Below the pieces are notes generated by a model, which had not been told where the DNA came from, ran no database searches, and saw only the letters and a list, made by a program, of their open reading frames with translations. Shown here piece after piece: positions 1-29,482 of a stretch of 31,807 nucleotides of DNA. Every line of letters begins with the position of its first letter. The stretch's first letter is position 1. This DNA comes from a virus. The stretch is from the IMG/VR virus record IMGVR_UViG_3300021404_000034, positions 1 to 31,807 of that record; one strand, written 5' to 3'. The position numbers and the translations under genes were made by a program.

Positions 1-543
1 GCACCACGCCCACCGTCACCACAAGCACCCCAGGCATCATCGCCTCCCCCGGCTCGACCCGCGCCGCAGGGGCCGCCGTCTGGCAGGACCGCCCAGTCGT
101 ATCCCCAGCAGGAGGAATATCCTCGGTCGGGTCCACCCGACAGACCGGAAGCCGGTCAGCCGGGGAGCCAGCGTTTGAGTCCTCAAGCGGGAGCGGGAAC
201 CGACATCGGTCCCGTACCAGAACGTCCCGGTATGCTACGGCCACAAGCGCAGGACAAGCAGTCGATATTCGAGAACATGCCGGGGCAACAGATACCCGGA
301 ATGCCCGCCCACCCCGGTCACGAAGAAGACCGGCAACATCTTCGTGGACGAACAATAGCGGATGGTTCGGCGGTCGAAGATGAGGAACCCAAGCCGGTAG
401 GCGTGCCAACACGCGCCATCATGCCGGGTCGTATGGGAACGGAAGAACCGGATGCACCGGAACTTCCAGAGTTTAACAACGGAGAACAGGAGGCTGAAAC
501 CCAGACACAGCGCCCAGCATATCGATCACCACAAGAACGTTAA
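1..543 (+). CDS. Pro/Gln-rich protein, C-terminal part (5' end outside window)
   Basis: Reading frame 1 is open from the first base to the TAA at 541-543, giving about 180 residues of a protein that begins outside the window. The first half is low-complexity (Pro, Ala, Gln, Ser) and the end is acidic with PEL and PEF tripeptides, so it is probably a disordered tail. The stop codon lies inside the first copy of the 18-bp palindrome (540-557). It is read in the same direction as the late-type genes that follow. Function is not recognisable. Frame choice rests on length and composition; frame 2 stops near 177 and frame 3 runs on to a TGA near 380. Confidence 0.6.
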   Translation, partial: APRPPSPQAPQASSPPPARPAPQGPPSGRTAQSYPQQEEYPRSGPPDRPEAGQPGSQRLSPQAGAGTDIGPVPERPGMLRPQAQDKQSIFENMPGQQIPGMPAHPGHEEDRQHLRGRTIADGSAVEDEEPKPVGVPTRAIMPGRMGTEEPDAPELPEFNNGEQEAETQTQRPAYRSPQER

Positions 544-557
544 CTGTAAGCAGTTAA
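540..557. repeat. 18-bp palindrome, copy 1
   Basis: TTAACTGTAAGCAGTTAA, both seven-base arms perfect. It supplies the TAA stop of the Pro-rich frame and lies 21 bases before the next start codon. Confidence 0.95.
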
Positions 558-578
558 ACTTTGACGAGGAGCAAACGC

Positions 579-1265
579 ATGGCAAGAGGTTATTGGGCTT
601 ATATTATCCCCTCGGGCGGTCGGCCCGGTGGGGGCGGAGGTCCGGTCGATCCCGATTATGGGATTGATGAAGGTGAAGGCGGTGGTGGCGACGAGTATCC
701 CGATCAGGGGCTTCCCGGCGGTGGTTGGGGTCGTCCCCCACGTCCCGGCAATCGGCCTCCCGGTAGTGGGCGTCCCCCACGTCCCGGCCATGGTCTACCC
801 CCGGCTTGGGGTGGTGGCGGTGGTGGGGAACATCCCGGTCATCTTCCCTCGCGTCCCAGCCGTCCCGGTCGTCCCGGTGGCGGTGGTAGTCCTGATCAAG
901 GGTTGCCTCCGGTTGGCGGTGATGGCGGTGAAGACGCTAGCCAGCTTCCGGTATGGCCGGTTGATCCAGAGCATCCTATCGCTCCTCCGATCCCCGGCGA
1001 GCCAAACCCGCCAATCGATCCGCCTCCCGGTACGGTATGGCCCCCGCTACCCGAAGGGCTTCCAGAGGGTAAGGCAATCGCTTTGATGGGGATTGCAACG
1101 AGCAGTGGCAGAGTGGCGTTCCACTATGTCATTATTGAGGTGCCGCCGCCGAAGCCGGATCAAGGCTTGCCGGGTGGTGGCGGTGGTGGTGAACACCCAG
1201 AAGTTCAACCGCCAATTGCACCGGGTGGACCGCCTACGGCACAGCCGAAGGCTTTCCGGCGGTAA
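579..1265 (+). CDS. Gly/Pro-rich protein with PDQGLP repeats
   Basis: A 228-residue protein starting at ATG 579, preceded by GAGGAG. It is dominated by Gly and Pro runs, with PDQGLP occurring three times (near residues 42, 105 and 200) and RPPRPG repeats. Only one stretch, around residues 165-190, looks like folded beta structure. Similar Gly/Pro-rich proteins occur in late regions of phages of alpha- and betaproteobacteria, but I cannot assign a role. It could be a virion-associated or disordered linker protein. It lies between the Pro-rich frame and the PEP-CTERM gene, all on the plus strand. Confidence 0.75.
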   Translation: MARGYWAYIIPSGGRPGGGGGPVDPDYGIDEGEGGGGDEYPDQGLPGGGWGRPPRPGNRPPGSGRPPRPGHGLPPAWGGGGGGEHPGHLPSRPSRPGRPGGGGSPDQGLPPVGGDGGEDASQLPVWPVDPEHPIAPPIPGEPNPPIDPPPGTVWPPLPEGLPEGKAIALMGIATSSGRVAFHYVIIEVPPPKPDQGLPGGGGGGEHPEVQPPIAPGGPPTAQPKAFRR

Positions 1266-1281
1266 GTTAACAAGAATTGGT

Positions 1282-1304
1282 GGCGAGAGGATAGTCCTCT
1301 CGCC
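1282..1304 (+). other. Perfect 10-bp hairpin before the PEP-CTERM gene
   Basis: GGCGAGAGGA pairs with TCCTCTCGCC around a three-base loop (TAG). No T-run follows, so it is not a classical terminator. It ends 19 bases before the ATG at 1324, just upstream of that gene's GGAGG, so it could affect translation or mRNA stability. Confidence 0.6.
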
Positions 1305-1323
1305 CTCAACCGGAGGACCAAGA

Positions 1324-1971
1324 ATGAGAAAAGTGTTATTGGCTAGCACGTTGCTAGCGGCAATGGGGGTTAGCCCTGCAATGGCAACATTGCAAATCGA
1401 GGTGTTCGATAACGGGTCGTTGATCGACAACGTTACCGGTATCACAACGGGCGCAGCGAGCCTAACAGCCAACGACGCGAACTTCGCCAACATCACGATC
1501 AATGCGCAAGGCTCGCCCATCTTGCCCAACGCGGACCTATCGAGTGTCACGCTCGACGCCACTGCGGCGTTGGGCTTTAGTGGCGCACACACGTTGACCA
1601 TCGACGTGCTGCAAAGCGCTATCTTTGGCACAGGAAATACCCTCTCAACCTTCACGGTCAACGGTTTGACCAATGATCCCGGCCCGACGACAGAGAGTAC
1701 GTTCGCCAATGGAGGGTTGCTCGCTACGCATACCTTCCCTGCCGCATTGCTCGATGGTTCCTTTGGTCCGGTGTCGGCGGCGACCGGCGCGTTCACGTCA
1801 GACGAGACACAGTTCGCTGTGGACTTCACGGCACCGCGTCAATCGTTCGGTGGTTCGATCCAGTTAACGACAGGTGTTCCTGAGCCTTCGACATGGGCGA
1901 TGCTGCTGATCGGCTTCGCCTTTGTGGCGTGGGGCGCTATGACGCGCAAACGAGTGCGGGAGTTTTACTGA
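1324..1971 (+). CDS. PEP-CTERM sorting-signal protein, predicted exported
   Basis: A 215-residue protein; ATG 1324 is preceded by CGGAGGACCAAGA. Residues 1-21 form a clear Sec signal peptide (basic start, hydrophobic core, AMA cleavage site). The middle is a Thr/Ala/Asn/Gly-rich beta-type extracellular sequence. The C-terminus (from about 185) has the complete PEP-CTERM layout: VPEP motif, TWAMLL, a transmembrane helix, and a basic TRKRVR tail. In bacteria such tails are cut by exosortase and mark proteins for the cell surface or extracellular matrix. By eye the gene is more GC-rich than the membrane genes that follow, which suggests capture from the host. Its role for a phage is unknown; surface modification or superinfection exclusion are guesses. 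Confidence 0.88.
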   Translation: MRKVLLASTLLAAMGVSPAMATLQIEVFDNGSLIDNVTGITTGAASLTANDANFANITINAQGSPILPNADLSSVTLDATAALGFSGAHTLTIDVLQSAIFGTGNTLSTFTVNGLTNDPGPTTESTFANGGLLATHTFPAALLDGSFGPVSAATGAFTSDETQFAVDFTAPRQSFGGSIQLTTGVPEPSTWAMLLIGFAFVAWGAMTRKRVREFY

Positions 1972-1972
1972 G

Positions 1973-1990
1973 TTAACTGCTGGCAGTTAG
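1973..1990. repeat. 18-bp palindrome, copy 2
   Basis: TTAACTGCTGGCAGTTAG, one base after the PEP-CTERM stop and before the next gene; intergenic. Confidence 0.95.
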
Positions 1991-1991
1991 G

Positions 1992-2017
1992 ATCACCGTC
2001 GTTTCGGCGGCGGTGAT
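1992..2017 (+). other. 10-bp hairpin after the PEP-CTERM gene
   Basis: ATCACCGTCG pairs with CGGCGGTGAT (one G-T pair) around a six-base loop. No T-run follows on either strand. It lies between palindrome copy 2 and the start at 2026, so it is a possible weak terminator or mRNA-stabilising stem. Confidence 0.5.
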
Positions 2018-2025
2018 TACTCAAA

Positions 2026-2250
2026 ATGAATGGAGCAAAGACTGGGTTCATAGCGTTGTGTGGTGCGTTGACCATTCTTACTATTTTTGCATTGATGGAC
2101 TTCTATGCTATCCATCAATGTTTTTATATAACGCGAACAGGAAATCCACTTCCCGATTTATGTTCGCCTGAGCATATATTCCGATCCTCATTAGAAATTG
2201 CTGGTATGGCTATTGGCCTCTATGGTGTGTCAAAAGTTATGAGGTCATAG
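2026..2250 (+). CDS. Small two-helix membrane protein A
   Basis: A 74-residue protein with two predicted transmembrane segments (about 5-25 and 52-70) separated by a Cys- and Pro-containing loop. It resembles the next protein in length, in helix placement, in a CF pair after helix 1, in a P-x-P-x-x-C loop and in a Gly-rich second helix, so the two look like tandem paralogues. Its position at the end of the plus-strand late block would suit a holin-like role, but nothing in the sequence proves it. The ribosome-binding site is weak. Confidence 0.7.
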   Translation: MNGAKTGFIALCGALTILTIFALMDFYAIHQCFYITRTGNPLPDLCSPEHIFRSSLEIAGMAIGLYGVSKVMRS

Positions 2251-2259
2251 CACTACGCC

Positions 2260-2505
2260 ATGAGTGACGAAGATAGAAAGGCTTATAAGCAATTGCTTCT
2301 CATTGGCGTATTGGCAATTTTTGGTATTTTATATATAGTTGCATTCGGTACGCTATTCGCCCTTTATGGGTGCTTCGATCTCTATATGAAGAGGGTCTTA
2401 CCGATACCAGAGGGCTGCACTAACGGCTCATTTGGTAAATTTGTGCTTGAATTTGTAGGGATTACAGTCGGGGTGTTGGGGGCAATCCGGTTGCTAGGAC
2501 AATGA
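2260..2505 (+). CDS. Small two-helix membrane protein B (paralogue of A)
   Basis: An 81-residue protein starting nine bases after the previous stop. It has a charged N-terminus (MSDEDRKAYK), transmembrane segments at about 11-33 and 60-79, and a loop with CF and P-x-P-x-x-C matching its neighbour. A GAGG lies about 15 bases upstream of the ATG, overlapping the end of gene A, so translation may be coupled. Function unknown; a holin or other late membrane protein is possible. It is the last plus-strand gene before the convergent minus-strand block. Confidence 0.72.
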   Translation: MSDEDRKAYKQLLLIGVLAIFGILYIVAFGTLFALYGCFDLYMKRVLPIPEGCTNGSFGKFVLEFVGITVGVLGAIRLLGQ

Positions 2506-2538
2506 AGCTTAACCGCTGTCTCTCCCATCTGGCAGTGG

Positions 2539-2600
2539 TAAGAGTGTGGGCCGGATAGACCGTTTGAACCCCCATGCGCCATCCGGCCCACATGCTCTTA
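2539..2600. other. Large inverted repeat between convergent genes
   Basis: Eleven bases at 2546-2556 (GTGGGCCGGAT) pair perfectly with 2581-2591. A further six (TAAGAG with CTCTTA) pair outside a small bulge. The loop is 24 bases. It lies where plus-strand and minus-strand transcription meet and includes the stop codon of the minus gene at 2598. There is no T-run on either side; it may still act as a two-way transcription or RNA-end barrier. Confidence 0.6.
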
Positions 2601-2804
2601 AACTAAATCGTGTTCTTTTGCCAGCCAATCAGGGATCGTAATCCATATTGGATCGTTACGCTCATAGTCGTCATCTATATATTGGATTTGCGACTTAGGT
2701 AGCCAAATTAAATTACCATCTTCTACAGTAGCGATACCAATAGCTAATTCAGTTTGCGTTATATAAACTAGCTCGTAGTCGTTAACGTTTGATCTGTAGC
2801 TCAT
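2598..2804 (-). CDS. Small conserved phage protein, WLPKSQI type
   Basis: A 68-residue soluble acidic protein. The centre (LIWLPKSQI) and the end (I-x-IPDWLAKE) match a pattern I recognise from small hypothetical proteins of many phages and mobile elements; no function is known. The ATG (2802-2804) has no Shine-Dalgarno sequence: palindrome copy 3 occupies that place, three bases upstream. It is the last gene of the leftward block. Confidence 0.75.
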   Translation of the reverse strand: MSYRSNVNDYELVYITQTELAIGIATVEDGNLIWLPKSQIQYIDDDYERNDPIWITIPDWLAKEHDLV

Positions 2805-2807
2805 AAC

Positions 2808-2825
2808 TTAACTGCCGACAGTTAA
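2808..2825. repeat. 18-bp palindrome, copy 3
   Basis: TTAACTGCCGACAGTTAA, both arms perfect. It is three bases upstream of the minus-strand start at 2804, in the position normally taken by the ribosome-binding site. Confidence 0.95.
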
Positions 2826-2981
2826 AGGAACATGAGGGAGAGCGACCTAATGGGTTTTGGGTAACACCAGACCGCCCTCCCTCCGTCTCCACTCGTACTT
2901 TCGTTAGGTACAGGATTAAAACCCAACGCCAGCGTAGGCCCGCTGTGCTACACGTTTATCTCGCTGGTACGCCGAATGAAA
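2826..2981. other. Gene-free stretch
   Basis: No convincing reading frame. It contains separated complementary pieces (TGGGTTTT near 2848 with AAAACCCA near 2917; ACCTAA with TTAGGT), so the minus-strand RNA could fold, but I see no known RNA family or tRNA. Confidence 0.4.
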
Positions 2982-3134
2982 CTAACGAGCCGCTTCCAAC
3001 TCTGCAACGCGGGCACGCAGAGCAAGAATTTCATCAATGAGCGGTATGATGTTTGCACCCCAATCGTACCCACAACCACCGCAAGCGCCTACGAAGGAAG
3101 CTCGAAAGGCGACTAATTCCTCATTGGTTTTCAT
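2982..3134 (-). CDS. Small protein with coiled-coil end (50 aa)
   Basis: ATG at 3132-3134, stop TAG at 2982-2984. The N-terminal half contains GACGGCGYDW, with two cysteines three apart. The C-terminal half (EILALRARVAELEAAR) is a short leucine-heptad coiled coil. Minus-strand context, codon content and a GGTGG just upstream support it as a real gene. Function unknown; a small oligomerising or zinc-binding adaptor is only a guess. Confidence 0.6.
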   Translation of the reverse strand: MKTNEELVAFRASFVGACGGCGYDWGANIIPLIDEILALRARVAELEAAR

Positions 3135-3149
3135 TCGCCACCATCGTTG

Positions 3150-3437
3150 TTAGTGTAGAGCATCTAGCGCCTTCTGCAAGCGATAGATAATCTCTGGCGG
3201 GTATATGCTCTCCGGTTCTGGCGTTGGCAAATCTACATGAACCGTGGCAGGGATAACAATTGTTTCGCGCTTTATCGGTAACTTGGGCACATATATTTTC
3301 CTGCCAACATAAGCGCGGGCTAGTGCAGAGTGCCAGCTAACACATTCATCGAGATGCACCCGATAGATTTGCCCGTATGGACAATGAGCGGCGTAGGCTG
3401 GGCTGACCAACATCAGATATACAAGTAAGCGTTTCAT
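3150..3437 (-). CDS. Predicted exported small protein, HCPYGQIYR type
   Basis: A 95-residue protein with a Sec signal peptide (residues 1-16, ending AYA) followed by HCPYGQIYRVHLDECVSWHS. The two cysteines probably form a periplasmic disulfide. Similar short exported proteins (C-P-x-G-x-I-Y-R-V) are familiar from rhizobial phages and prophages; function unknown. The ATG at 3435-3437 follows a strong GGAGGGG. A 12-bp stem (3455-3497) stands just before that site. Confidence 0.75.
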   Translation of the reverse strand: MKRLLVYLMLVSPAYAAHCPYGQIYRVHLDECVSWHSALARAYVGRKIYVPKLPIKRETIVIPATVHVDLPTPEPESIYPPEIIYRLQKALDALH

Positions 3438-3454
3438 GTTCCCCTCCTAAATCA

Positions 3455-3497
3455 GGGGCGGTTGCCGCGGTCGGGGGGATCATTGGGCAACCGCCCC
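3455..3497 (-). promoter_or_regulatory. 12-bp stem-loop upstream of exported-protein gene
   Basis: GGGGCGGTTGCC (3455-3466) is perfectly complementary to 3486-3497, with a 19-base loop. On the minus strand it ends about 18 bases before the start codon at 3437, directly upstream of the GGAGGGG. There is no T-run, so a role in translation or mRNA stability is more likely than termination. Confidence 0.55.
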
Positions 3498-3523
3498 CTA
3501 GTCTCTGGTATAAGCTCGCGATC

Positions 3524-3772
3524 CTATCCAGAGTACCCCGCAAGTTCTTCAAGGTGAGCTAAGATGATCCACACCTTGGTCGCTTCATAAGGGTCCAGCA
3601 TATATCGCTGATCAACTCCCTTTGCTTTCAGAATAGCGTTGATGGCGTGAGCGCGCAGCAAGTCGTGGTGGTTGGGCCTTTCCGCGACGGCAGTGGCTTC
3701 TTCACGCATAACTCGTTCAATATCTTCAGTATTGGGTGGTATATCGCGAAGTCTTTCCAATAACTCATTCAT
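3524..3772 (-). CDS. Small helical hypothetical protein (82 aa)
   Basis: ATG at 3770-3772 preceded by GGAGTACAAAGGC. The protein is alpha-helical and charged (MNELLERLRDIPPN..., LLRAHAINAIL, VWIILAHLEELAG), without membrane segments or metal motifs. I do not recognise a family. It follows the 3787-4005 gene after 14 bases and belongs to the same leftward operon. Confidence 0.65.
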   Translation of the reverse strand: MNELLERLRDIPPNTEDIERVMREEATAVAERPNHHDLLRAHAINAILKAKGVDQRYMLDPYEATKVWIILAHLEELAGYSG

Positions 3773-3786
3773 GCCTTTGTACTCCT

Positions 3787-4005
3787 TTACTCTGACGCTG
3801 TATTGAGATTACTATCGATCTCAGTGAACTTATCATCCACTTCATCTAAAGCATCTGCTGCCTCTTGCAGGGCGTCTTTGACATCTTCATCGTCCTCGGC
3901 ATTGATTAGGTCTTGAATAGTACCTAAGCACAAACCGATTTCGCCGCGAAGATTGTCAAGCTTGAGCTTAACTGCTGACAGTTTATCTTTATTTGCCTTG
4001 TCCAT
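3787..4005 (-). CDS. Small acidic coiled-coil protein (72 aa)
   Basis: The start at 4003-4005 is chosen because GAGG lies six bases before it and because it overlaps the upstream stop as TAATG; a TTG at 4026 would add seven residues. The protein is very acidic with helical repeats (EDDEDVKDALQEAADALDEVDDKF), likely a coiled coil. Palindrome copy 4 is inside the gene, read as K-L-S-A-V-K. Function unknown. Confidence 0.68.
   Translation of the reverse strand: MDKANKDKLSAVKLKLDNLRGEIGLCLGTIQDLINAEDDEDVKDALQEAADALDEVDDKFTEIDSNLNTASE
3968..3985. repeat. 18-bp palindrome, copy 4 (in gene)
   Basis: TTAACTGCTGACAGTTTA, inside the acidic coiled-coil gene, translated as LSAVK. Confidence 0.93.
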
Positions 4006-4439
4006 TATTTCCTCATCTCGGTCCAAGTTTTGAACTGCTTTAAGTTTTCAGGCTTTAGCTCATCTGCATTCCAGTCTCCTTTGAACGTGATGGCTCTGTC
4101 GTCGATAGTGACGAACCCCGGTGGTTTGGCTATTGGGAATAGGAAGTCAGTCATCAGAAGGTCAGTCTCCCGTGCTTCTAATGGGCCTGTATCCTGTCTA
4201 TCCCAATGCCAACTCTGTAACTGTATCGTCAGCCAATCCTTCATTGGCTTAATGTTTTTGTGACTATCAGAGCGCGTACTGTAGATGGCAAGAACAAAAT
4301 ATTTCTTTGCCTCTATGGCCCACTCGAAGAACCCCGGTACAACGGTACCGTATATGTGTCCACCCTGCCAGCCATTCTCGTAGGAGTGAATAACTCCATC
4401 GAAGTCAACTACTAGCGTCGGTTTCTGTCTCGTCGTCAT
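4005..4439 (-). CDS. HAD-superfamily phosphatase-like protein
   Basis: A 144-residue protein with HAD motif I near the N-terminus (LVVDFDGVIHSY; nucleophile D12, acid/base D14), a threonine/serine motif II candidate (YSTRSDS) and a late acidic motif (TIDDRAITF). It matches the short phage HAD group with FDGVIHSY-x-x-GW-x-G. HAD enzymes remove phosphate through an aspartyl intermediate. Here a nucleotide or DNA 3'-phosphate substrate is plausible given the replication neighbours, but unproven. The start overlaps the primase-helicase end by 35 bases and the stop overlaps the next start as TAATG. Confidence 0.8.
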   Translation of the reverse strand: MTTRQKPTLVVDFDGVIHSYENGWQGGHIYGTVVPGFFEWAIEAKKYFVLAIYSTRSDSHKNIKPMKDWLTIQLQSWHWDRQDTGPLEARETDLLMTDFLFPIAKPPGFVTIDDRAITFKGDWNADELKPENLKQFKTWTEMRK

Positions 4440-7299
4440 CTTTAACCTCGTTAAATTCCCAATCTATAGCTTTCTCAAGGTCCGTCTGTTTGATGCTGAT
4501 CGTCCAGCACAACTCAGTTCCAGAGTCTTTACCGAAACGAGTGCCAGAACCAATACGCGCATTGGATGGATGTATCCTTGATAGCTTCTCTATACCGTCA
4601 GCGAGGCTAGAGTATTCTTTATTGGTTAACTTGCACCATTCCCTTAACGATGCATCGGTGAAACGTAGGTGTGGTGTATCAGGTTTACCTTTAAGTCCTC
4701 GCGCTATCTGTACACAAGGCCAAGAGTTGATGAACTTCATGGGGCCATCGTTCTCTACCTGCACTGAACCTTTAACCGGCTTACCACGATCAAGAATTAT
4801 GATATCGGTAATGATCGTTTTAGCAGCGCGGTTATATCGAAGGTAACTACTTAGCTCACTGACAATAACAGCGGGCTTTGAGTAGTCACTGGGTGACAGT
4901 TTCCTATGAGTACGCAAATCTACAATCTGATCGATAAGATAGTCACGTATAGACGCAGGATCGAACGGAGCAAGACCTAGTAACTTAGCGAAGTAACTGC
5001 CAGCAGTTACCGCAGTAGCGCCAGCAAACCAGTATCTATCTCCTTCCTCGTATCCTAATCGCTTTACAAAATCTTTCTCAATTTTGTCTACAACTATTTT
5101 AACATAATCTCTATTCCTGCCAAGGTATGCTGCATAAACTAATCCAATATGCCCGTAATTATCTTTAAGGCTGGTCCGCATACGGTCAACATCATCAAAT
5201 GAATGCGTTGTCAGTTGATTAGCCAAACATCTAAACTCAAGCATACGTACCATCGTTGCAGATGTACCTTTACTGCTTCTCTCTGCGGCACTGACCATAG
5301 ATCGATTAGCGGCATAAACAATGGGCATTTCCCATTGCTTAGTCGCTCGCAACGATCCATCTCGATTAGCACGCCCCCTATCTCTACCCTCCGTTATCTG
5401 GTTAGCCATCTTTATGAATTGTGCTTCCTGCACTTCGTCTTTAATTTCGTCATGATACAGAGGAAGGCTCTTAAGCATTGCTGCTTTAGCAACTAGGTGG
5501 GCGAAAGTATCGCTTAACCCATTCATTGATGCCGGTGAACCCCATATCGCTTGTGACAATGACATGGCTGTTGTCTTACCGACACCGGTAGCTGTAGACC
5601 ACCCTCCTATAAGAACACCATTATGACCAGCAAGACCCAACAAAGGGGCAGCAAATCCCGCTGCCACAAGGCAGCAAAGATCGAGGCGCTGAATAGTGAT
5701 GAGAATATCAGCAAGATCAGTCCACGGCTTGGCACTGCCCACTACTCCGTATTGATATTCAGCATTGATTGATAGAGCAGGGTATTCTCCACTTGGCGCT
5801 ATAAACTTTTGATCGAACGAAAAGCCATACTCTCCATTTCTAGTGTTCCAACCCATAGGTGGAAGCTTGATTACGCTATCGCGTAACTTAGCTATGAACG
5901 ACATGAAGAAATCTTTCTGGAGTTTACCATATCCAAATGGTATCCCTTGATCCCCAAACGCTTCCCCTGACTTAGATAGGTTGGTGAGATGCCCAGCACC
6001 GACACGAATTTCTTTTTCATCATCTCCTTCCTTCGTCTTAAAGACCAAAGTATATGGGCTTCCACCTTCTAGTCGCCCTGAATTTGGGACGATTTGAAAT
6101 GGGAATATACAATGCGGGTATACTCGTCCACCATCTTCTTCGGCAATATCGATATAGATGTAATTAGCTTTCGCTGACCATCGATAATATTTATCCGGCA
6201 AGTCGGAAAGGATGGTGCTGTGATATGTGTGACCATTGCGCCCGTAAGTAATGGATATTGGGTTGGAGCTACGATTGTTATGTTTACAGGCGGGGCATTG
6301 CGTTGCACCGTGCCTGGCAATAGTGGCGCAGAAAGGTGGACCTTTACTTTGCTTCTCAGCATCCTTAAACTTTTCAGTAGTCTCGCTTTGGCTGTACGAA
6401 TGATGCTTGTTTGACAAGGCATGCGCAACAGCATGTGGGTTAGTTGTATGACGAGCAAGGCAAAGACTAAGCCACCATAGATAATAGCTAGCATCTGTGC
6501 CACCAGTGTTAAGGGTATGATCAACAAAACCACACTCCTTGCGCACCACCTCGATATCCACCGGGGCATAAACCTTGCCCCCACCTTGCATATTCCTTTC
6601 ATCTTCAAACTCGCTAGCATTATCACTGCTTGCAGTTAAGGGTTTCACCCATTGCGCTAAAGGTTGTTGTAATTGAGCGACAGTAAATACTTCTCCAGTA
6701 TCATACCAAATTTCAACATTGGTAGGCTTATCCTTAACCTTGTAATTCTTCGTGCCGGGAATACGGAGAACACGAGTGCGATCGACTGTGCATTCCGTAT
6801 CAAACTTAAGCCCTGTCGATTGAGCAGCAGCAGACAATGCATCTGCCATCGGTTGCCATTCATCAGGATGTACCAACCTATCGAACGGCCAGTATAGATG
6901 GTATCCACCGCTACCACTCCGAATAGCAAATGGCGAGCGGGGGAAGCCCGTATCTGTATAAAATTTCTCGACCGCCACATCCATCTTTTCGGTAGAAGAG
7001 TACAGTTTGCGATCAATATCCATACGTAATGACTTAAGGCACCAAATATTTGGCAGAGTACGGTCTGCTTCAGGAATAGTTTTTCCTTGCTTAACTGGTC
7101 CATGTCTTTCTTGACCACCTTGGGATAGGAATAGGTCAAGATTTTTCTCCATAAACCAATTAACAAGCATGATTGCTTGCTTGAAGTTAGAACATGCTTT
7201 ACCGGGCAACCCTCCATGTGTACCCAACAGATGGACACTGATGTACCCTCCTTGGGCGAGAGGTGCCACACGCGACAAATAGTGTTCGACCGGACCCAC
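4405..7299 (-). CDS. Primase-helicase: AEP primase fused to DUF927-type helicase
   Basis: A 964-residue protein. The N-terminal third has archaeo-eukaryotic primase motifs: MDID at 93-96 (metal-binding DxD), SGSGGYH at 128-134, and DRTRVLRIPGTKN from 173. A Cys-rich patch (CATIARHGATQCPAC, about 325-340) may bind zinc. The C-terminal half is a DUF927-like SF3/AAA helicase with Walker A ATGVGKTT near 568-575 and Walker B LPLYHDEI. Together these would unwind DNA and lay primers at the fork, with the family A polymerase (12829-14709) as partner. The start is GTG 7299 preceded by GGGAGCGGGTC. Palindrome copies 5 and 6 are inside the gene, read as VTAGSY and LTASSD. Confidence 0.88.
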   Translation of the reverse strand: MGPVEHYLSRVAPLAQGGYISVHLLGTHGGLPGKACSNFKQAIMLVNWFMEKNLDLFLSQGGQERHGPVKQGKTIPEADRTLPNIWCLKSLRMDIDRKLYSSTEKMDVAVEKFYTDTGFPRSPFAIRSGSGGYHLYWPFDRLVHPDEWQPMADALSAAAQSTGLKFDTECTVDRTRVLRIPGTKNYKVKDKPTNVEIWYDTGEVFTVAQLQQPLAQWVKPLTASSDNASEFEDERNMQGGGKVYAPVDIEVVRKECGFVDHTLNTGGTDASYYLWWLSLCLARHTTNPHAVAHALSNKHHSYSQSETTEKFKDAEKQSKGPPFCATIARHGATQCPACKHNNRSSNPISITYGRNGHTYHSTILSDLPDKYYRWSAKANYIYIDIAEEDGGRVYPHCIFPFQIVPNSGRLEGGSPYTLVFKTKEGDDEKEIRVGAGHLTNLSKSGEAFGDQGIPFGYGKLQKDFFMSFIAKLRDSVIKLPPMGWNTRNGEYGFSFDQKFIAPSGEYPALSINAEYQYGVVGSAKPWTDLADILITIQRLDLCCLVAAGFAAPLLGLAGHNGVLIGGWSTATGVGKTTAMSLSQAIWGSPASMNGLSDTFAHLVAKAAMLKSLPLYHDEIKDEVQEAQFIKMANQITEGRDRGRANRDGSLRATKQWEMPIVYAANRSMVSAAERSSKGTSATMVRMLEFRCLANQLTTHSFDDVDRMRTSLKDNYGHIGLVYAAYLGRNRDYVKIVVDKIEKDFVKRLGYEEGDRYWFAGATAVTAGSYFAKLLGLAPFDPASIRDYLIDQIVDLRTHRKLSPSDYSKPAVIVSELSSYLRYNRAAKTIITDIIILDRGKPVKGSVQVENDGPMKFINSWPCVQIARGLKGKPDTPHLRFTDASLREWCKLTNKEYSSLADGIEKLSRIHPSNARIGSGTRFGKDSGTELCWTISIKQTDLEKAIDWEFNEVKDDDETETDASS
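4993..5010. repeat. 18-bp palindrome, copy 5 (in gene)
   Basis: GTAACTGCCAGCAGTTAC, within the helicase part of the primase-helicase gene, translated VTAGSY. Confidence 0.93.
6622..6639. repeat. 18-bp palindrome, copy 6 (in gene)
   Basis: ATCACTGCTTGCAGTTAA, in the linker after the primase domain, translated LTASSD. Confidence 0.92.
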
Positions 7300-21291: not shown

Positions 21292-21550
21292 AGTATGCCT
21301 TTTGTATTGCTTCGTGCGGACCTACTGCGATCATTTGCTCCGGTATTCCAGTACCGAACCTTGTATAGTTCCCCGTTGGAGTAGGAGGGGTTTCGAGCAA
21401 TTTGATGAACGCTAGGTCACTCTCCATGTTCTCATGACAACGAGTAGCTCTTACCGTATTCCCTTCAACAAGAGCCCTCTGCTCCTCTTCGCCCCAGTTA
21501 ACTGCTAGCAGTTTAAGCTGGGCAATCTGCTTATCTTTTACTGTTGTCAT
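21206..21550 (-). CDS. Hypothetical protein (114 aa)
   Basis: ATG 21548-21550. The N-terminal half is helical (VKDKQIAQLKLLAVNWGEEEQRALVEG...), with palindrome copy 17 encoding LLAVN. A middle segment reads TPTGNYTRFGTGIPEQMIAVG. It overlaps the genes on both sides. Function unknown. Confidence 0.66.
   Translation of the reverse strand: MTTVKDKQIAQLKLLAVNWGEEEQRALVEGNTVRATRCHENMESDLAFIKLLETPPTPTGNYTRFGTGIPEQMIAVGPHEAIQKAYYDRFHRAKQISPRSDGDDHKELPPSKAG
21498..21515. repeat. 18-bp palindrome, copy 17 (in gene)
   Basis: TTAACTGCTAGCAGTTTA, inside the 114-residue gene, translated KLLAVN. Confidence 0.94.
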
Positions 21551-21998
21551 GCTTTTTCCTCTTGAAATCAGTGCCAGCTACAATGGCTACATCGCTGGTA
21601 TCAGCTAGCAACCCTCTGACCAACGTATTGGTGGCGAGAGGATATGATCGATCAACATACCCCGGTATCTTTGGAGGTGTTGTGTATTTGTCCTCCAGCG
21701 CTTCAACACGCGCCTCTAACTGCTTTACGCTAACACGTAGATCCTCAATAGATTGATCACGTTGTTTATTGAAGAAACGAGACGGCTCTAGCAATAAGTT
21801 TAATTCTTGCCGCATCCCACGCACATGTCCTGCATTGATATTGGGTATGGTAGGCTTAAACAAATCAGCTACATGCTGATCCGTCTTGGCTACGCTATCC
21901 CACGTAGCGTATTGATCATCAGGCGGTCGAGAACAGTGAGTTTCGATGTATTGCATCACTGTATATTTTTCTTTTATTGATAAGGTTTTCTTTGGCAC
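21531..21998 (-). CDS. Coiled-coil protein with possible HTH (155 aa)
   Basis: GTG 21998 preceded by GTAGGAG. Residues 1-70 are helical (SIKEKYTVMQYIETHCSRPP, GHVRGMRQELN) and could be a helix-turn-helix; residues 80-105 form a coiled coil (IEDLRVSVKQLEARVEALEDKY); the tail is basic. A DNA-binding dimer is plausible. Function unknown. Confidence 0.66.
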   Translation of the reverse strand: MPKKTLSIKEKYTVMQYIETHCSRPPDDQYATWDSVAKTDQHVADLFKPTIPNINAGHVRGMRQELNLLLEPSRFFNKQRDQSIEDLRVSVKQLEARVEALEDKYTTPPKIPGYVDRSYPLATNTLVRGLLADTSDVAIVAGTDFKRKKHDNSKR

Positions 21999-23303: not shown

Positions 23304-23530
23304 TTCTTTGCATCCACTAGCTGGAGGAACATAGCAGCATCACCACTCACTGCGCCACAATGCTGGAAGAACGTAGAACGGTTAAAGGATTGTGGATTGT
23401 CTTCTTGCAGCATAATGGCGAAGGCTTTCACCGTATTCAGCCAATTGTGGTGATACTCCACACTATCGCGCTTTGGCACGCGGTGCTGATAGAGGATTTT
23501 AGCGATCCTTTGGTAATCCTGCCTTGTCAT
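23300..23530 (-). CDS. Conserved small phage protein, NPQSFNRSTF type (76 aa)
   Basis: ATG 23528-23530 with AAGGATAAGAA upstream. Pattern DYQRIAKIL, W-x-x-x-V-x-x-FA-x-x-LQEDNP, SFNRSTFFQHC: I recognise this from short conserved proteins of many phages. Probably a small all-helical protein; function unknown. Confidence 0.74.
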   Translation of the reverse strand: MTRQDYQRIAKILYQHRVPKRDSVEYHHNWLNTVKAFAIMLQEDNPQSFNRSTFFQHCGAVSGDAAMFLQLVDAKK

Positions 23531-23696
23531 TTCTTATCCTTATGAACCTATCCTCCGTCTCCCATCCATTGAGCCATGCTGCGTGATATTTGCGCTGCTC
23601 TGCGGTATCTGTGCCAAAAGGGTTAGAAGTCATCGCCAATTCAGCACGTCTAGCACTCAGTCCAGCGCTGAATGCAAGATACATCTTACCTTTCAT
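23499..23696 (-). CDS. Rmf/CrpP-like small protein
   Basis: A 65-residue protein with the pattern A-x-x-AGLSAR ... NPF ... Y-x-AWLNGWE, matching ribosome modulation factor and the related CrpP fold (AG-x-x-AR ... NP ... W-x-x-GW). In bacteria RMF dimerises and silences ribosomes. A phage copy could affect host translation, but many Rmf/CrpP-fold proteins have unknown roles. ATG 23694-23696 overlaps the upstream stop (ATGA), and it overlaps the next gene by 32 bases. Confidence 0.68.
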   Translation of the reverse strand: MKGKMYLAFSAGLSARRAELAMTSNPFGTDTAEQRKYHAAWLNGWETEDRFIRIRNDKAGLPKDR

Positions 23697-24034
23697 TCTC
23701 CTTTCTCCTTGAGCTTGGTATGAATTAACTTAATGTGATCCTTTGTCCATTGTGCCATCCTATCATAGAAGATGATATGAGGGTTGTTTTTGATTGCTTC
23801 TGCTGCTAAAGCGTATCCCTCATCAAATGGCAACGCCTCGATCTTATCCATCAGCGCATCCATTGCAACATAACCCATAGTATTATGAATAACATGCAAG
23901 CGCTCAATAATAAAACCCATGGACTTCGATACACTTTTGGTATCGTTCACCTCTAGCGCTTCAATTGCAATATGCACATTGACCTTGATATCCATTAGCG
24001 AATTATAGATAGCATCTTTGTGTTTGTTGTCCAT
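23693..24034 (-). CDS. Helical hypothetical protein (113 aa)
   Basis: ATG 24032-24034 with GGAGATAAGTA upstream. Fully helical, soluble (NSLMDIKVNVHIAIEALEVN, MGFIIERLHVIHNTMGYVAM). No known motif. First of a run of coupled small genes (23693, 23499, 23300, 23160). Confidence 0.68.
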   Translation of the reverse strand: MDNKHKDAIYNSLMDIKVNVHIAIEALEVNDTKSVSKSMGFIIERLHVIHNTMGYVAMDALMDKIEALPFDEGYALAAEAIKNNPHIIFYDRMAQWTKDHIKLIHTKLKEKGE

Positions 24035-24271: not shown

Positions 24272-24311
24272 CTCACACAAGCTTGCGCAGTGTGAGCAAC
24301 TGAAGAGTTAA

Positions 24312-25415
24312 TCATTCTTGGTCGCCCATCTGTTGAGCTTCCACCTCTTCATCGGATACCGTCTGGTCCGCGCCATTACCCGGTGTTGCGGTAGGCGCCT
24401 TGATCACGCGCCGAGTGCGCTTCTGCTTGGCAGTTGCCGCCTTGAAGCGGTTAGCATTGCCGGGATCGAGATCATTGAACGCATAATCTTGCAGCGTCTG
24501 GATGATATCCACAAGTTGCTGATCCTTGATACCGACGAACCCACCCTTGCCGCTTTTAGACGGCGTTTTGCCGTCACGCGCCAAGTTGAGCTTCTTGTAA
24601 GCTTCAACCAACGCCGTAATGGCGTCGTCATTGAACACCTTGTCCTTCTTGAGCAAGGACTTGAAGATCTCATCCTCGTCCATAAGAGGCGCAGACCCGC
24701 CACCCTTGCCGTCCCGATCCAATTGCTCGCGCACAACATCGGCAAGAAACTCAAATGTGCCGCGAAGGTTCTTCATCGACTTCTTGATATCGGGAGAGGC
24801 GGTTTTCTCCTCGATAACGTCGATCACCTCCCCGAACCACTGTTGTGCGTCGCTCTTATGGTTCATGCCGAGGCAGATAATATTGCGATACTTCGCGACG
24901 TTCGAGTTGAAGTCGGTCGAAGAGACATCGATTGGCTTGCTGTCCTTGTTGGGCATACGGAACAGCTTGTACATTTCGAGCGCATCATCCTGCTTCATGC
25001 CATTGGGCAATTCAGCGTAAGCAAATGCGTCGATCACAGTCCCTTCGAGCAGCTTTTCAGCCAATCCAAGGGTAGAAACCGCAGCCCCTTGGTAAGCGCG
25101 ACCAAGCTTGCGAATTTCGTTGATATAGAACTTGCGCTTATCCGCGATGGACGAGCGCTGATTGACGCCAGTACCGGCACCAACCAAGTCCTCATCCACC
25201 TCCACCTCCCCATTAGGGATTGGAGCATCAGGAAGAGGCATCACGTTTTCTGTAGTATAAGTTTGTTCAGCCATAGGTGGAGTGCTTTCTTGAGTTGTAT
25301 CTGCGCCCTCTTGCGCTAGACCTGCAAGCACCTCGCTCGCAGATGTATTTTCAACGGGGGTGGGAGCAACATTGTTCCCATTACCCAGATTAACCTTACG
25401 CTTGCCTTGTGCCAT
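24312..25415 (-). CDS. Hypothetical protein (367 aa), own promoter and terminator
   Basis: Start ATG 25413-25415 with AAAGGCAAACAACT upstream; the frame extends to 25496 without a better start. Disordered Thr/Glu-rich N-terminus, a helical core (ADKRKFYINEIRKLGRAYQG, MYKLFRMPNKDSKP, MKNLRGTFEFLADVVREQLD) and a basic then acidic tail. No recognised domain. It is a single-gene unit flanked by a palindrome-containing promoter (25505-25533) and a strong terminator, which suggests high, regulated expression. A DNA-binding or virion protein are both possible. Confidence 0.75.
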   Translation of the reverse strand: MAQGKRKVNLGNGNNVAPTPVENTSASEVLAGLAQEGADTTQESTPPMAEQTYTTENVMPLPDAPIPNGEVEVDEDLVGAGTGVNQRSSIADKRKFYINEIRKLGRAYQGAAVSTLGLAEKLLEGTVIDAFAYAELPNGMKQDDALEMYKLFRMPNKDSKPIDVSSTDFNSNVAKYRNIICLGMNHKSDAQQWFGEVIDVIEEKTASPDIKKSMKNLRGTFEFLADVVREQLDRDGKGGGSAPLMDEDEIFKSLLKKDKVFNDDAITALVEAYKKLNLARDGKTPSKSGKGGFVGIKDQQLVDIIQTLQDYAFNDLDPGNANRFKAATAKQKRTRRVIKAPTATPGNGADQTVSDEEVEAQQMGDQE

Positions 25416-28009: not shown

Positions 28010-29482
28010 ATGCAATCGAACACGCCCGTCCAACGCGGCTGGACATATTATGCACCTCCCACAATATCCCGATTCTTGGAGAGCGATGCTTTTGGGCGGC
28101 TCTTATGTGGACCTGTCGGATCGGGCAAGACAACTGCATGCTTGGTTGAGATCGCCAGACGTATGGGAGAACAAGCTCCCGCCTCTGACGGTAGACGTTA
28201 TTCTCGCTGGGCTATTATCCGACAATCACTCAAGGACGCCAAGGCCACAGTCCTAAAAGATGCGAGAGGTTGGTTCGGTGCGCTTGCGGATTGGCGAGTG
28301 TCTGAAAGCACGATGTATGTAGATTATGGTGACATATATAGCGAGTGGATGTATATCCCTCTAGAGAACCCTGAAGATATAAAACGTCTACTCTCTACAC
28401 AGTTAACTGGGGCCTACATAAACGAAGCTTCTGAGATCGATATAGGTCTTTTATCTCATATTGCCGGACGATGTGGCCGGTTTCCCAATGAAGAGTTTGG
28501 CGCACCAACATGGCGAGGGATCATAGCCGATACCAATATGCCAATCGTGAATACGCCATGGTGCGATTTTATTTTAAATGCGCCTCCTTTGTGGCAGGTG
28601 TTTCGTCAGCCTAGCGGTCTGAGCTTTGAAGCTGAGAACTTAGATCACCTCGATCAGACTGCCGATACGTTAATGTTACCAGAGGGGCATCCCGCACGTA
28701 TAGCGCAGGGGCGAGGGTATTACAATAGATTAGCAACGTTAGGCACAGAAGATTATATTAGACGTTATGTTATGGCTGAGTTTGGCAGGGACGTTTCAGG
28801 TTCCGCTGTATACCAAGAAAGCTTCCGTTATGAGTTCCACGTCCGAGAAACCCTATCGCCTGTTCCCGCGCGGCTACTTGTTGTGGGCCAAGACTTTGGA
28901 CGAAACCCTTGGTCACTTATCACTCAACTCGATCACCGAGGAAGGCTCCAGTGCTTGGAAGAGGTCGCAGGAGTTGATATCGGCCTTGAACAGCACGTCA
29001 AGCAAAATCTTATTCCGGCATTGCTCACGGAGCGTTACGCTGGACTGCCGATTGTTGTTGTTGGAGATCCCAGTGGAGAGTACAAAGACAGTCTCTTTGA
29101 GCTTAACCATTTCGATCTTCTTACCTCGCTTGGCCTTCCCGCCGAGCGTGCGCCGACAAACGACATTGACCCGCGTATCCGAAGCGTTGAGGCTATGCTG
29201 CTTCGACAAATCGATGGAGGAGGGGCTGTCCTATTTGACCGAGCTAAATGTCCTACTCTAGTTCAGGCGATGAACGGGGGGTATCGGTATACCAAAGATC
29301 GATACGATCAATCCCGCTCTATACCCGATAAGAACAATTTCTCGCATGTCTCCGATGCGCTGCAATACGTTTGTTTGATTGCCGGGTCGATGAGCGCTTA
29401 TTCATGGTTGCTGGGGCGAGTGGTTAACAGAAGAAAAATTATTCGTCCTAGACCAAGGGTAAGCGCGCTAGCGTGGACTTAA
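28010..29482 (+). CDS. terL: Terminase large subunit
   Basis: A 490-residue protein starting at ATG 28010 after AAGGCAACGC. ATPase: Walker A CGPVGSGKTT at 33-42, Walker B AYINEASE at 135-142. RNase H-like nuclease: D295 (GQDFGRNPW), D353 (VVGDPSG) and D449 (FSHVSDALQY), the three metal-binding acids of TerL. It cuts the concatemer and pumps DNA into the prohead. It is encoded ahead of the portal in the normal late order, although three minus-strand genes lie between them. Confidence 0.95.
   Translation: MQSNTPVQRGWTYYAPPTISRFLESDAFGRLLCGPVGSGKTTACLVEIARRMGEQAPASDGRRYSRWAIIRQSLKDAKATVLKDARGWFGALADWRVSESTMYVDYGDIYSEWMYIPLENPEDIKRLLSTQLTGAYINEASEIDIGLLSHIAGRCGRFPNEEFGAPTWRGIIADTNMPIVNTPWCDFILNAPPLWQVFRQPSGLSFEAENLDHLDQTADTLMLPEGHPARIAQGRGYYNRLATLGTEDYIRRYVMAEFGRDVSGSAVYQESFRYEFHVRETLSPVPARLLVVGQDFGRNPWSLITQLDHRGRLQCLEEVAGVDIGLEQHVKQNLIPALLTERYAGLPIVVVGDPSGEYKDSLFELNHFDLLTSLGLPAERAPTNDIDPRIRSVEAMLLRQIDGGGAVLFDRAKCPTLVQAMNGGYRYTKDRYDQSRSIPDKNNFSHVSDALQYVCLIAGSMSAYSWLLGRVVNRRKIIRPRPRVSALAWT

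Follow-up and report, generated by a model that had tools for sequence, protein, structure and literature searches.

A stretch of 31,807 nucleotides from a virus (IMG/VR record IMGVR_UViG_3300021404_000034, positions 1 to 31,807; hereafter the window) encodes a PEP-CTERM protein, P0001, at positions 1324-1971. PEP-CTERM/exosortase sorting occurs widely among environmental bacteria; it is linked to exopolysaccharide and flocs and is still little understood. On the best reading of the evidence, the P0001 family is a conserved part of the phages' own stable lytic-cycle gene set, and the architecture and distribution of its members make it probable that this is a long-standing phage gene using the exosortase route of the host. 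An earlier interpretation made from the nucleotide sequence alone (the sequence-only reading) did not count PEP-CTERM proteins among typical phage cargo, and they are undescribed in the named phages and the open-licence literature found. The presence of this one highly conserved gene in many soil and sediment phages suggests that they use the host's surface-sorting machinery during infection, and searches confined to open-licence literature found no earlier report of phage-encoded PEP-CTERM proteins. The horizontally acquired genes listed in a study of the Yellowstone virome include 13 virus-associated TIGR03118 proteins, whose C-terminus is a putative site of exosortase interaction (PMC11003980).

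Architecture of the PEP-CTERM protein

P0001 consists of a signal peptide, a mature domain and a complete PEP-CTERM tail. Its open reading frame (ORF) is real and not a product of chance, since a relative 98% identical at the protein level is encoded by a contig of a separate metagenome data set. The main features of the window are as follows.

1324-1971, + strand: gene for the PEP-CTERM protein P0001 (ORF translation, 215 amino acids)
1312-1316, + strand: Shine-Dalgarno-like GGAGG in the sequence upstream of the P0001 ATG
1324-1386, + strand: Sec signal peptide, residues 1-21, with MRK n-region, hydrophobic core and AMA cleavage site (by inspection)
1387-1872, + strand: mature all-beta jelly-roll domain, residues 22-183 (AlphaFold2 model, structural neighbours and the ratio of nonsynonymous to synonymous differences per site, pN/pS)
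1873-1968, + strand: PEP-CTERM tail with PEP at residues 186-188, a hydrophobic helix at about 188-207 and the basic end RKRVRE
28010-29482, + strand: terminase large subunit (TerL; a PHROG match that marks the record as a tailed phage)

The protein begins with MRKVLLASTLLAAMGVSPAMA^TLQ, where the cleavage site, like all signal peptide calls, was assigned by inspection of the n, h and c regions and the AMA^T site, and it ends with VPEPSTWAMLLIGFAFVAWGAMTRKRVREFY. An AxA-like site before Thr or Gly is present in essentially all relatives. The Sec signal peptide and complete tail described in the sequence-only reading are both borne out, the former by these regions and the conserved cleavage pattern, the latter by the PF07589 profile, which matches residues 185-209 with 26.8 bits (gathering cut-off 20.7, E 5e-6). 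TIGR02595 scores 23.1 bits against a cut-off of 16. The NF035944 (PEPxxWA) score of 34.6 bits falls marginally below the curated cut-off of 35, and 33 of 38 relatives match this model with E <= 0.001. The best whole-length model is that of the FxDxF family (NF038126), which 37 of 38 family members match at E <= 0.001; at 39 bits against a cut-off of 50, P0001 itself lies outside that family by the curated rule.

The mature domain contains no Cys, Lys, Trp or Tyr and a single Arg (0.6%), and is composed of 16% Thr, 8.6% Ser and 6.8% Asn, in agreement with the composition of PEP-CTERM cohorts (Haft et al. 2006, PMC1569441). Like proteins of the bacterial PEP-CTERM/exosortase system (PMC1569441; PF07589, TIGR02595), P0001 combines a signal peptide, PEP, hydrophobic helix and basic C-terminal end with the absence of any other membrane segment, and is poor in Cys and basic residues and rich in Thr, Ser and Asn. 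Unlike them, it is encoded by phages, in 34 records of which no exosortase gene was found, and usually once per phage (twice in phages G045 and G047), compared with a median of eight such proteins per bacterial genome.

The AlphaFold2 model of P0001, the best of five uneven models (mean predicted local distance difference test score 78), is a 12-strand jelly-roll with a tail helix at residues 188-207; residues 22-183 are modelled as strands only. Its top structural neighbour is the Epf adhesin domain (Z 9.9), followed at Z of about 8 by CBM61, CBM4, the glycan-binding SGBP-B, the K2-2 tailspike and viral jelly-rolls. A similar jelly-roll model with overlapping neighbours was obtained for family 3, which is unrelated in sequence.

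Distribution and origin of the gene family

The window is indeed a piece of a phage genome. It has PHROG matches to terminase, DNA polymerase, SNF2-type helicase, exonuclease and primase, and contig G029 from another metagenome data set matches window positions 1-4510 contiguously at 95.8% identity. Upstream of the PEP-CTERM gene, G029 encodes a major head protein, tail fibres, an internal virion protein and two very large proteins, one tape-measure-like and one of unassigned function, as well as an endolysin-type gene with a peptidoglycan-binding domain, after which the PEP-CTERM gene comes. The replication and terminase genes of the window, together with the head, tail fibre and internal virion genes of G029, uphold the claim that the gene is phage-borne. 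A second contig, G005, is 92-97% identical to window positions 9997-31807 and runs on for another 33 kb, past head and tail genes, as far as an endolysin gene, which puts the genome of the window phage at about 66 kb; the contig ends inside the endolysin gene, just before the PEP-CTERM locus, and is uninformative on the presence of the gene. By TerL (48% identity to Rhizobium phage RHph_TM3_14A), the nearest named relatives are the RHph_TM3_14A group (60.9 kb), whose annotation also names a RecB-type exonuclease, SNF2 helicase, DNA polymerase I and ATPase. Unlike the window phage, RHph_TM3_14A has no PEP-CTERM match across its whole genome, and for lysis its annotation gives a GH25 protein.

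Searching IMG/VR viral contigs with P0001 yielded 65 loci, and a query built from the family alignment added three distant ones of 54-58% identity. The relatives, 54-98% identical, belong to several unrelated phage lineages of 39-65% guanine-plus-cytosine content (GC). Most carrier records are fragments. Five of the carriers have little in common besides the family: G030 (64 kb, GC 59%, terminal repeat of 104 bp), G038 (45.5 kb, circular through a 146-bp end overlap), G041 (78 kb, GC 63%), G052 (80.6 kb, GC 41%) and G053 (34 kb, GC 64%). No relative was found in 84,980 bacterial and archaeal species genomes in two scans, one with P0001 and one with the alignment; these scans were seeded by exact short peptides, which distant relatives could escape, and the same alignment recovered the viral relatives of 54-58% identity. 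The 50,697 named phage records likewise contained no relative in tblastn searches up to E = 10, and a DNA comparison of the first 25 kb of the window with named phages gave no match to the gene.

The sequence-only reading had also raised the possibility of recent host cargo, that is, a recently acquired bacterial gene that is passively carried. The GC of the P0001 gene (57%) does exceed that of the window (48%), and PEP-CTERM proteins are otherwise known from bacterial genes. Against this, the gene is carried by many unrelated phages and by no scanned species genome, its GC at third codon positions follows the overall GC of the flanking phage sequence with a constant offset (r = 0.90, 59 loci), and synonymous differences between phages are large (mean proportion of synonymous differences, pS, 0.53). 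Recent acquisition is therefore very improbable. Between the window phage and G030, the PEP-CTERM gene tops the 15 shared genes at 83%, compared with a median of 45% for the other 14. Its pS in this pair is 0.59, lower than the 0.73-0.88 of the other listed genes, so exchange between phages may contribute in addition to constraint. No tyrosine integrase was found in 25 records of phages carrying this family (family 1), two of them complete circles, which indicates that most carriers act in the lytic cycle.

Exchange of the ectodomain and retention of the tail

Across 378 pairs, pN/pS is 0.16 for the mature domain, 0.49 for the signal peptide and 0.45 for the tail, figures that are to be read relative to one another only because synonymous sites are near saturation. 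Judged by these ratios, purifying selection acts strongly on the mature domain, and the signal peptide and tail drift. The fastest variation thus lies in the signal peptide and tail, which agrees with their being the parts expected to be cut off.

Within this drift, the hydrophobic stretch and basic end are kept in all 59 complete tails, and Pro-Glu and TW in 58 of them, among 37 distinct tail sequences. PEP itself varies, with PEL in one close relative and PEA, PES or PET in several. The one complete tail without Pro-Glu and TW is the divergent one of locus L058, which has VPGPVVGAGLPG followed by the hydrophobic stretch and basic end, and is below Pfam detection. Tails of this type occur in some Rhizobiales.

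The ectodomain has been exchanged while the PEP-CTERM tail was retained. In L317, which belongs by a 91% identical head protein to a lineage with the gene between a portal-like gene and scaffold and major head genes, the slot holds an unrelated PEP-CTERM protein of 191 amino acids, and DNA homology to L008 ends inside the signal peptide and restarts just past the stop codon. Similarly, L289, a relative of G030, has another PEP-CTERM family in the corresponding interval beside an M15 endolysin. Some tails are closer between than within families: that of L336 is 81% identical to that of L041, compared with 48% within its family, and that of L329 is 71% identical to that of P0001, compared with 38%. 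In G045 and G047, a second, unrelated PEP-CTERM protein, P0004 (L042 9870-10616), adjoins a GH19-like gene.

Scanning viral contigs for a PEPxTWAM tail returned at least 82 ORFs, which mostly have it C-terminally, and two further recurrent families were present among the matches listed; some of these contigs may be prophages with host flanks, and the number of ORFs is not a number of phages. The two other PEP-CTERM families had nothing besides one chance-level match in named phages. Side by side with these results stands G071, a 52-kb viral contig with two PEP-CTERM genes (positions 5746-5820 and 47848-47922), both of which have a tyrosine integrase gene a few hundred bases away.

These patterns somewhat favour a dedicated slot for exosortase-sorted surface proteins, common to several unrelated lytic phage groups and filled either by the conserved jelly-roll or by a swapped-in unrelated ectodomain, always with a host-type PEP-CTERM tail. 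The tail could instead be a plain C-terminal membrane anchor, as the architecture alone is undecisive, PEP varies as described above, and no exosortase (PF09721) was found in the 34 phage records checked. Such an anchor would not account for the Pro-Glu and TW kept in otherwise freely varying tails, for a composition typical of PEP-CTERM cohorts, or for the same tail being kept on unrelated ectodomains, and this alternative is improbable.

Proposed role and genomic setting

Sec export and exosortase processing are suggested by the architecture. P0001 would be exported by Sec and lose its signal peptide, and the C-terminal helix would hold it in the inner membrane until the host exosortase recognised and cut the PEP-CTERM tail and released the jelly-roll domain towards the cell exterior or into the exopolysaccharide. 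At this site, the domain may coat the infected cell or matrix and mask receptors late in infection, which would stop progeny from re-adsorbing to the dying cell, debris or matrix and keep competing phages out. The lipoprotein Llp of phage T5, a phage-made envelope protein that inactivates the receptor FhuA and keeps progeny off debris (PMC12373910), and the receptor-blocking envelope protein Cor of lambdoid phages (PMC9409062) offer a proposed functional likeness to P0001; they have no sequence relation to it and use another sorting route. Receptor or matrix masking as the function of P0001 is a tentative proposal. The account as a whole, from lytic-cycle gene through export, exosortase sorting and surface or matrix display to masking, stands at about even odds.

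Several observations weigh against this account. High conservation across phages suits a receptor-masking arms race poorly. With Z of 7.6 to 9.9, the structural matches are modest, and the fold by itself does not indicate a function. The mature domain matches no recognised sugar-binding sequence family, its likeness to carbohydrate-binding modules being structural, and its lack of Trp and Tyr is unusual for a sugar-binding module. As Z values of about 8 are near the reach of unrelated beta-sandwiches, a sugar-binding role is a lead only. In addition, four large phages encode a serine recombinase of the resolvase family, so some carriers may not be strictly lytic. Finally, since no exosortase was found in the 34 phage records checked, the host would have to supply it, and a host enzyme of this kind is presumed. 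No tRNA is present in the window, and none in the other phages is informative on the host. The matches of a plasmid search were confined to PEP-CTERM tails and to short stretches at the C-terminus of Sphingomonadales proteins. Together with a TerL closest to those of Rhizobium phages, these tail matches allow the guess that the host belongs to the Alphaproteobacteria.

The genes of the family sit in late lysis or head regions, a position that bears on two further explanations. P0001 might remodel the matrix or envelope at release, either by competing with host PEP-CTERM proteins for exosortase or by entering the exopolysaccharide and loosening aggregates, or might aid lysis, so that progeny disperse. 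In the window phage lineage the gene follows the endolysin-type gene, and in G030, G041, L289 and others an M15 endolysin is found no more than about 2 kb away; moreover, PEP-CTERM proteins are required for floc formation in Aquincola (PMC9850573). In another lineage, however, 14 loci have the gene away from lysis genes, with a portal-like gene on one side and scaffold/head genes on the other (no PHROG was found for the portal-like protein of this group A, which is labelled by inspection), and exosortase titration alone needs no strongly conserved mature domain. Remodelling is accordingly rather unlikely. The location among head genes in one lineage, and the existence of capsid jelly-rolls such as rotavirus VP6 and birnavirus VP2, would also fit a structural or internal particle protein that merely resembles a PEP-CTERM protein. 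This is highly improbable, as the signal peptide and membrane tail imply that the protein leaves the cytoplasm, where tailed phages assemble, and as it is freely replaced by unrelated ectodomains.

The surroundings of the PEP-CTERM genes include the following features.

561-1265, + strand: gene for a Gly/Pro-rich low-complexity protein, upstream of P0001
1282-1304, + strand: perfect inverted repeat GGCGAGAGGA-TAG-TCCTCTCGCC in the gap that separates P0001 from the Gly/Pro-rich gene, without a T-run
1991-2018, + strand: stem-loop directly 3' of P0001 (fold prediction), without a T-run in the window
2026-2250 and 2260-2505, + strand: two similar small, probably two-helix membrane proteins of 74 and 81 amino acids, directly downstream of P0001
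3150-3437, - strand: small exported protein; others at G030 21294-21584 and L289 8742-9056
M15 endolysin: G041 (L217) 51393-51860; G030 23379-23840; G052 68806-69255; G053 33485-33934; L289 10176-10619
Gly/Pro-rich relatives: G030 24307-24990; G041 52829-53626; L042 7003-7797; L319 3081-3710 (by eye); L322 7334-8068

Besides the PEP-CTERM gene, this phage group has a second hyperconserved gene, that for the short M15 peptidase endolysin (PF08291), which is 79-85% identical between phages that are otherwise unrelated and differ widely in GC; its best match in a named phage is 57%. A cupin-like protein of 119 amino acids, 81% identical in the otherwise unrelated G041 (74522-74878) and G052 (65890-66246), is an exchanged gene. 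Gly/Pro-rich proteins starting like M.RG..VWI.PV recur near PEP-CTERM genes of different families, and in L045 a relative of the gene adjoins the PEP-CTERM gene. The small exported proteins of G030 and L289 have the motif C-Y-S-R-W-Y-Y-P-Y-P-Q in common. The two membrane proteins downstream of P0001 have no Pfam match and are possibly holin-like.

GC-rich hairpins occur 3' of the PEP-CTERM gene in many relatives. Promoter-like sites (p < 0.05) were found in 8 of 40 distinct upstream regions, five of them with exact TTGACA and 17-bp spacing, and in none of 11 upstream regions of the head-operon lineage. T-run terminators were present in 8 of 40 regions (3.8 expected). These counts do not uphold a universal moron with its own promoter and terminator.

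If the gene that phages have conserved best encodes an exosortase substrate, this sorting pathway is important for infection. Phage PEP-CTERM proteins would offer small, strongly expressed natural substrates for the study of exosortases, and the type of tail may aid host prediction. The conserved ectodomain may indicate a surface or matrix feature widely shared by abundant uncultured soil bacteria. Furthermore, a dedicated slot, if true, would give phages of exosortase-bearing Gram-negative bacteria a general route by which, in the lytic cycle, a protein of their own reaches the surface or matrix of the host.
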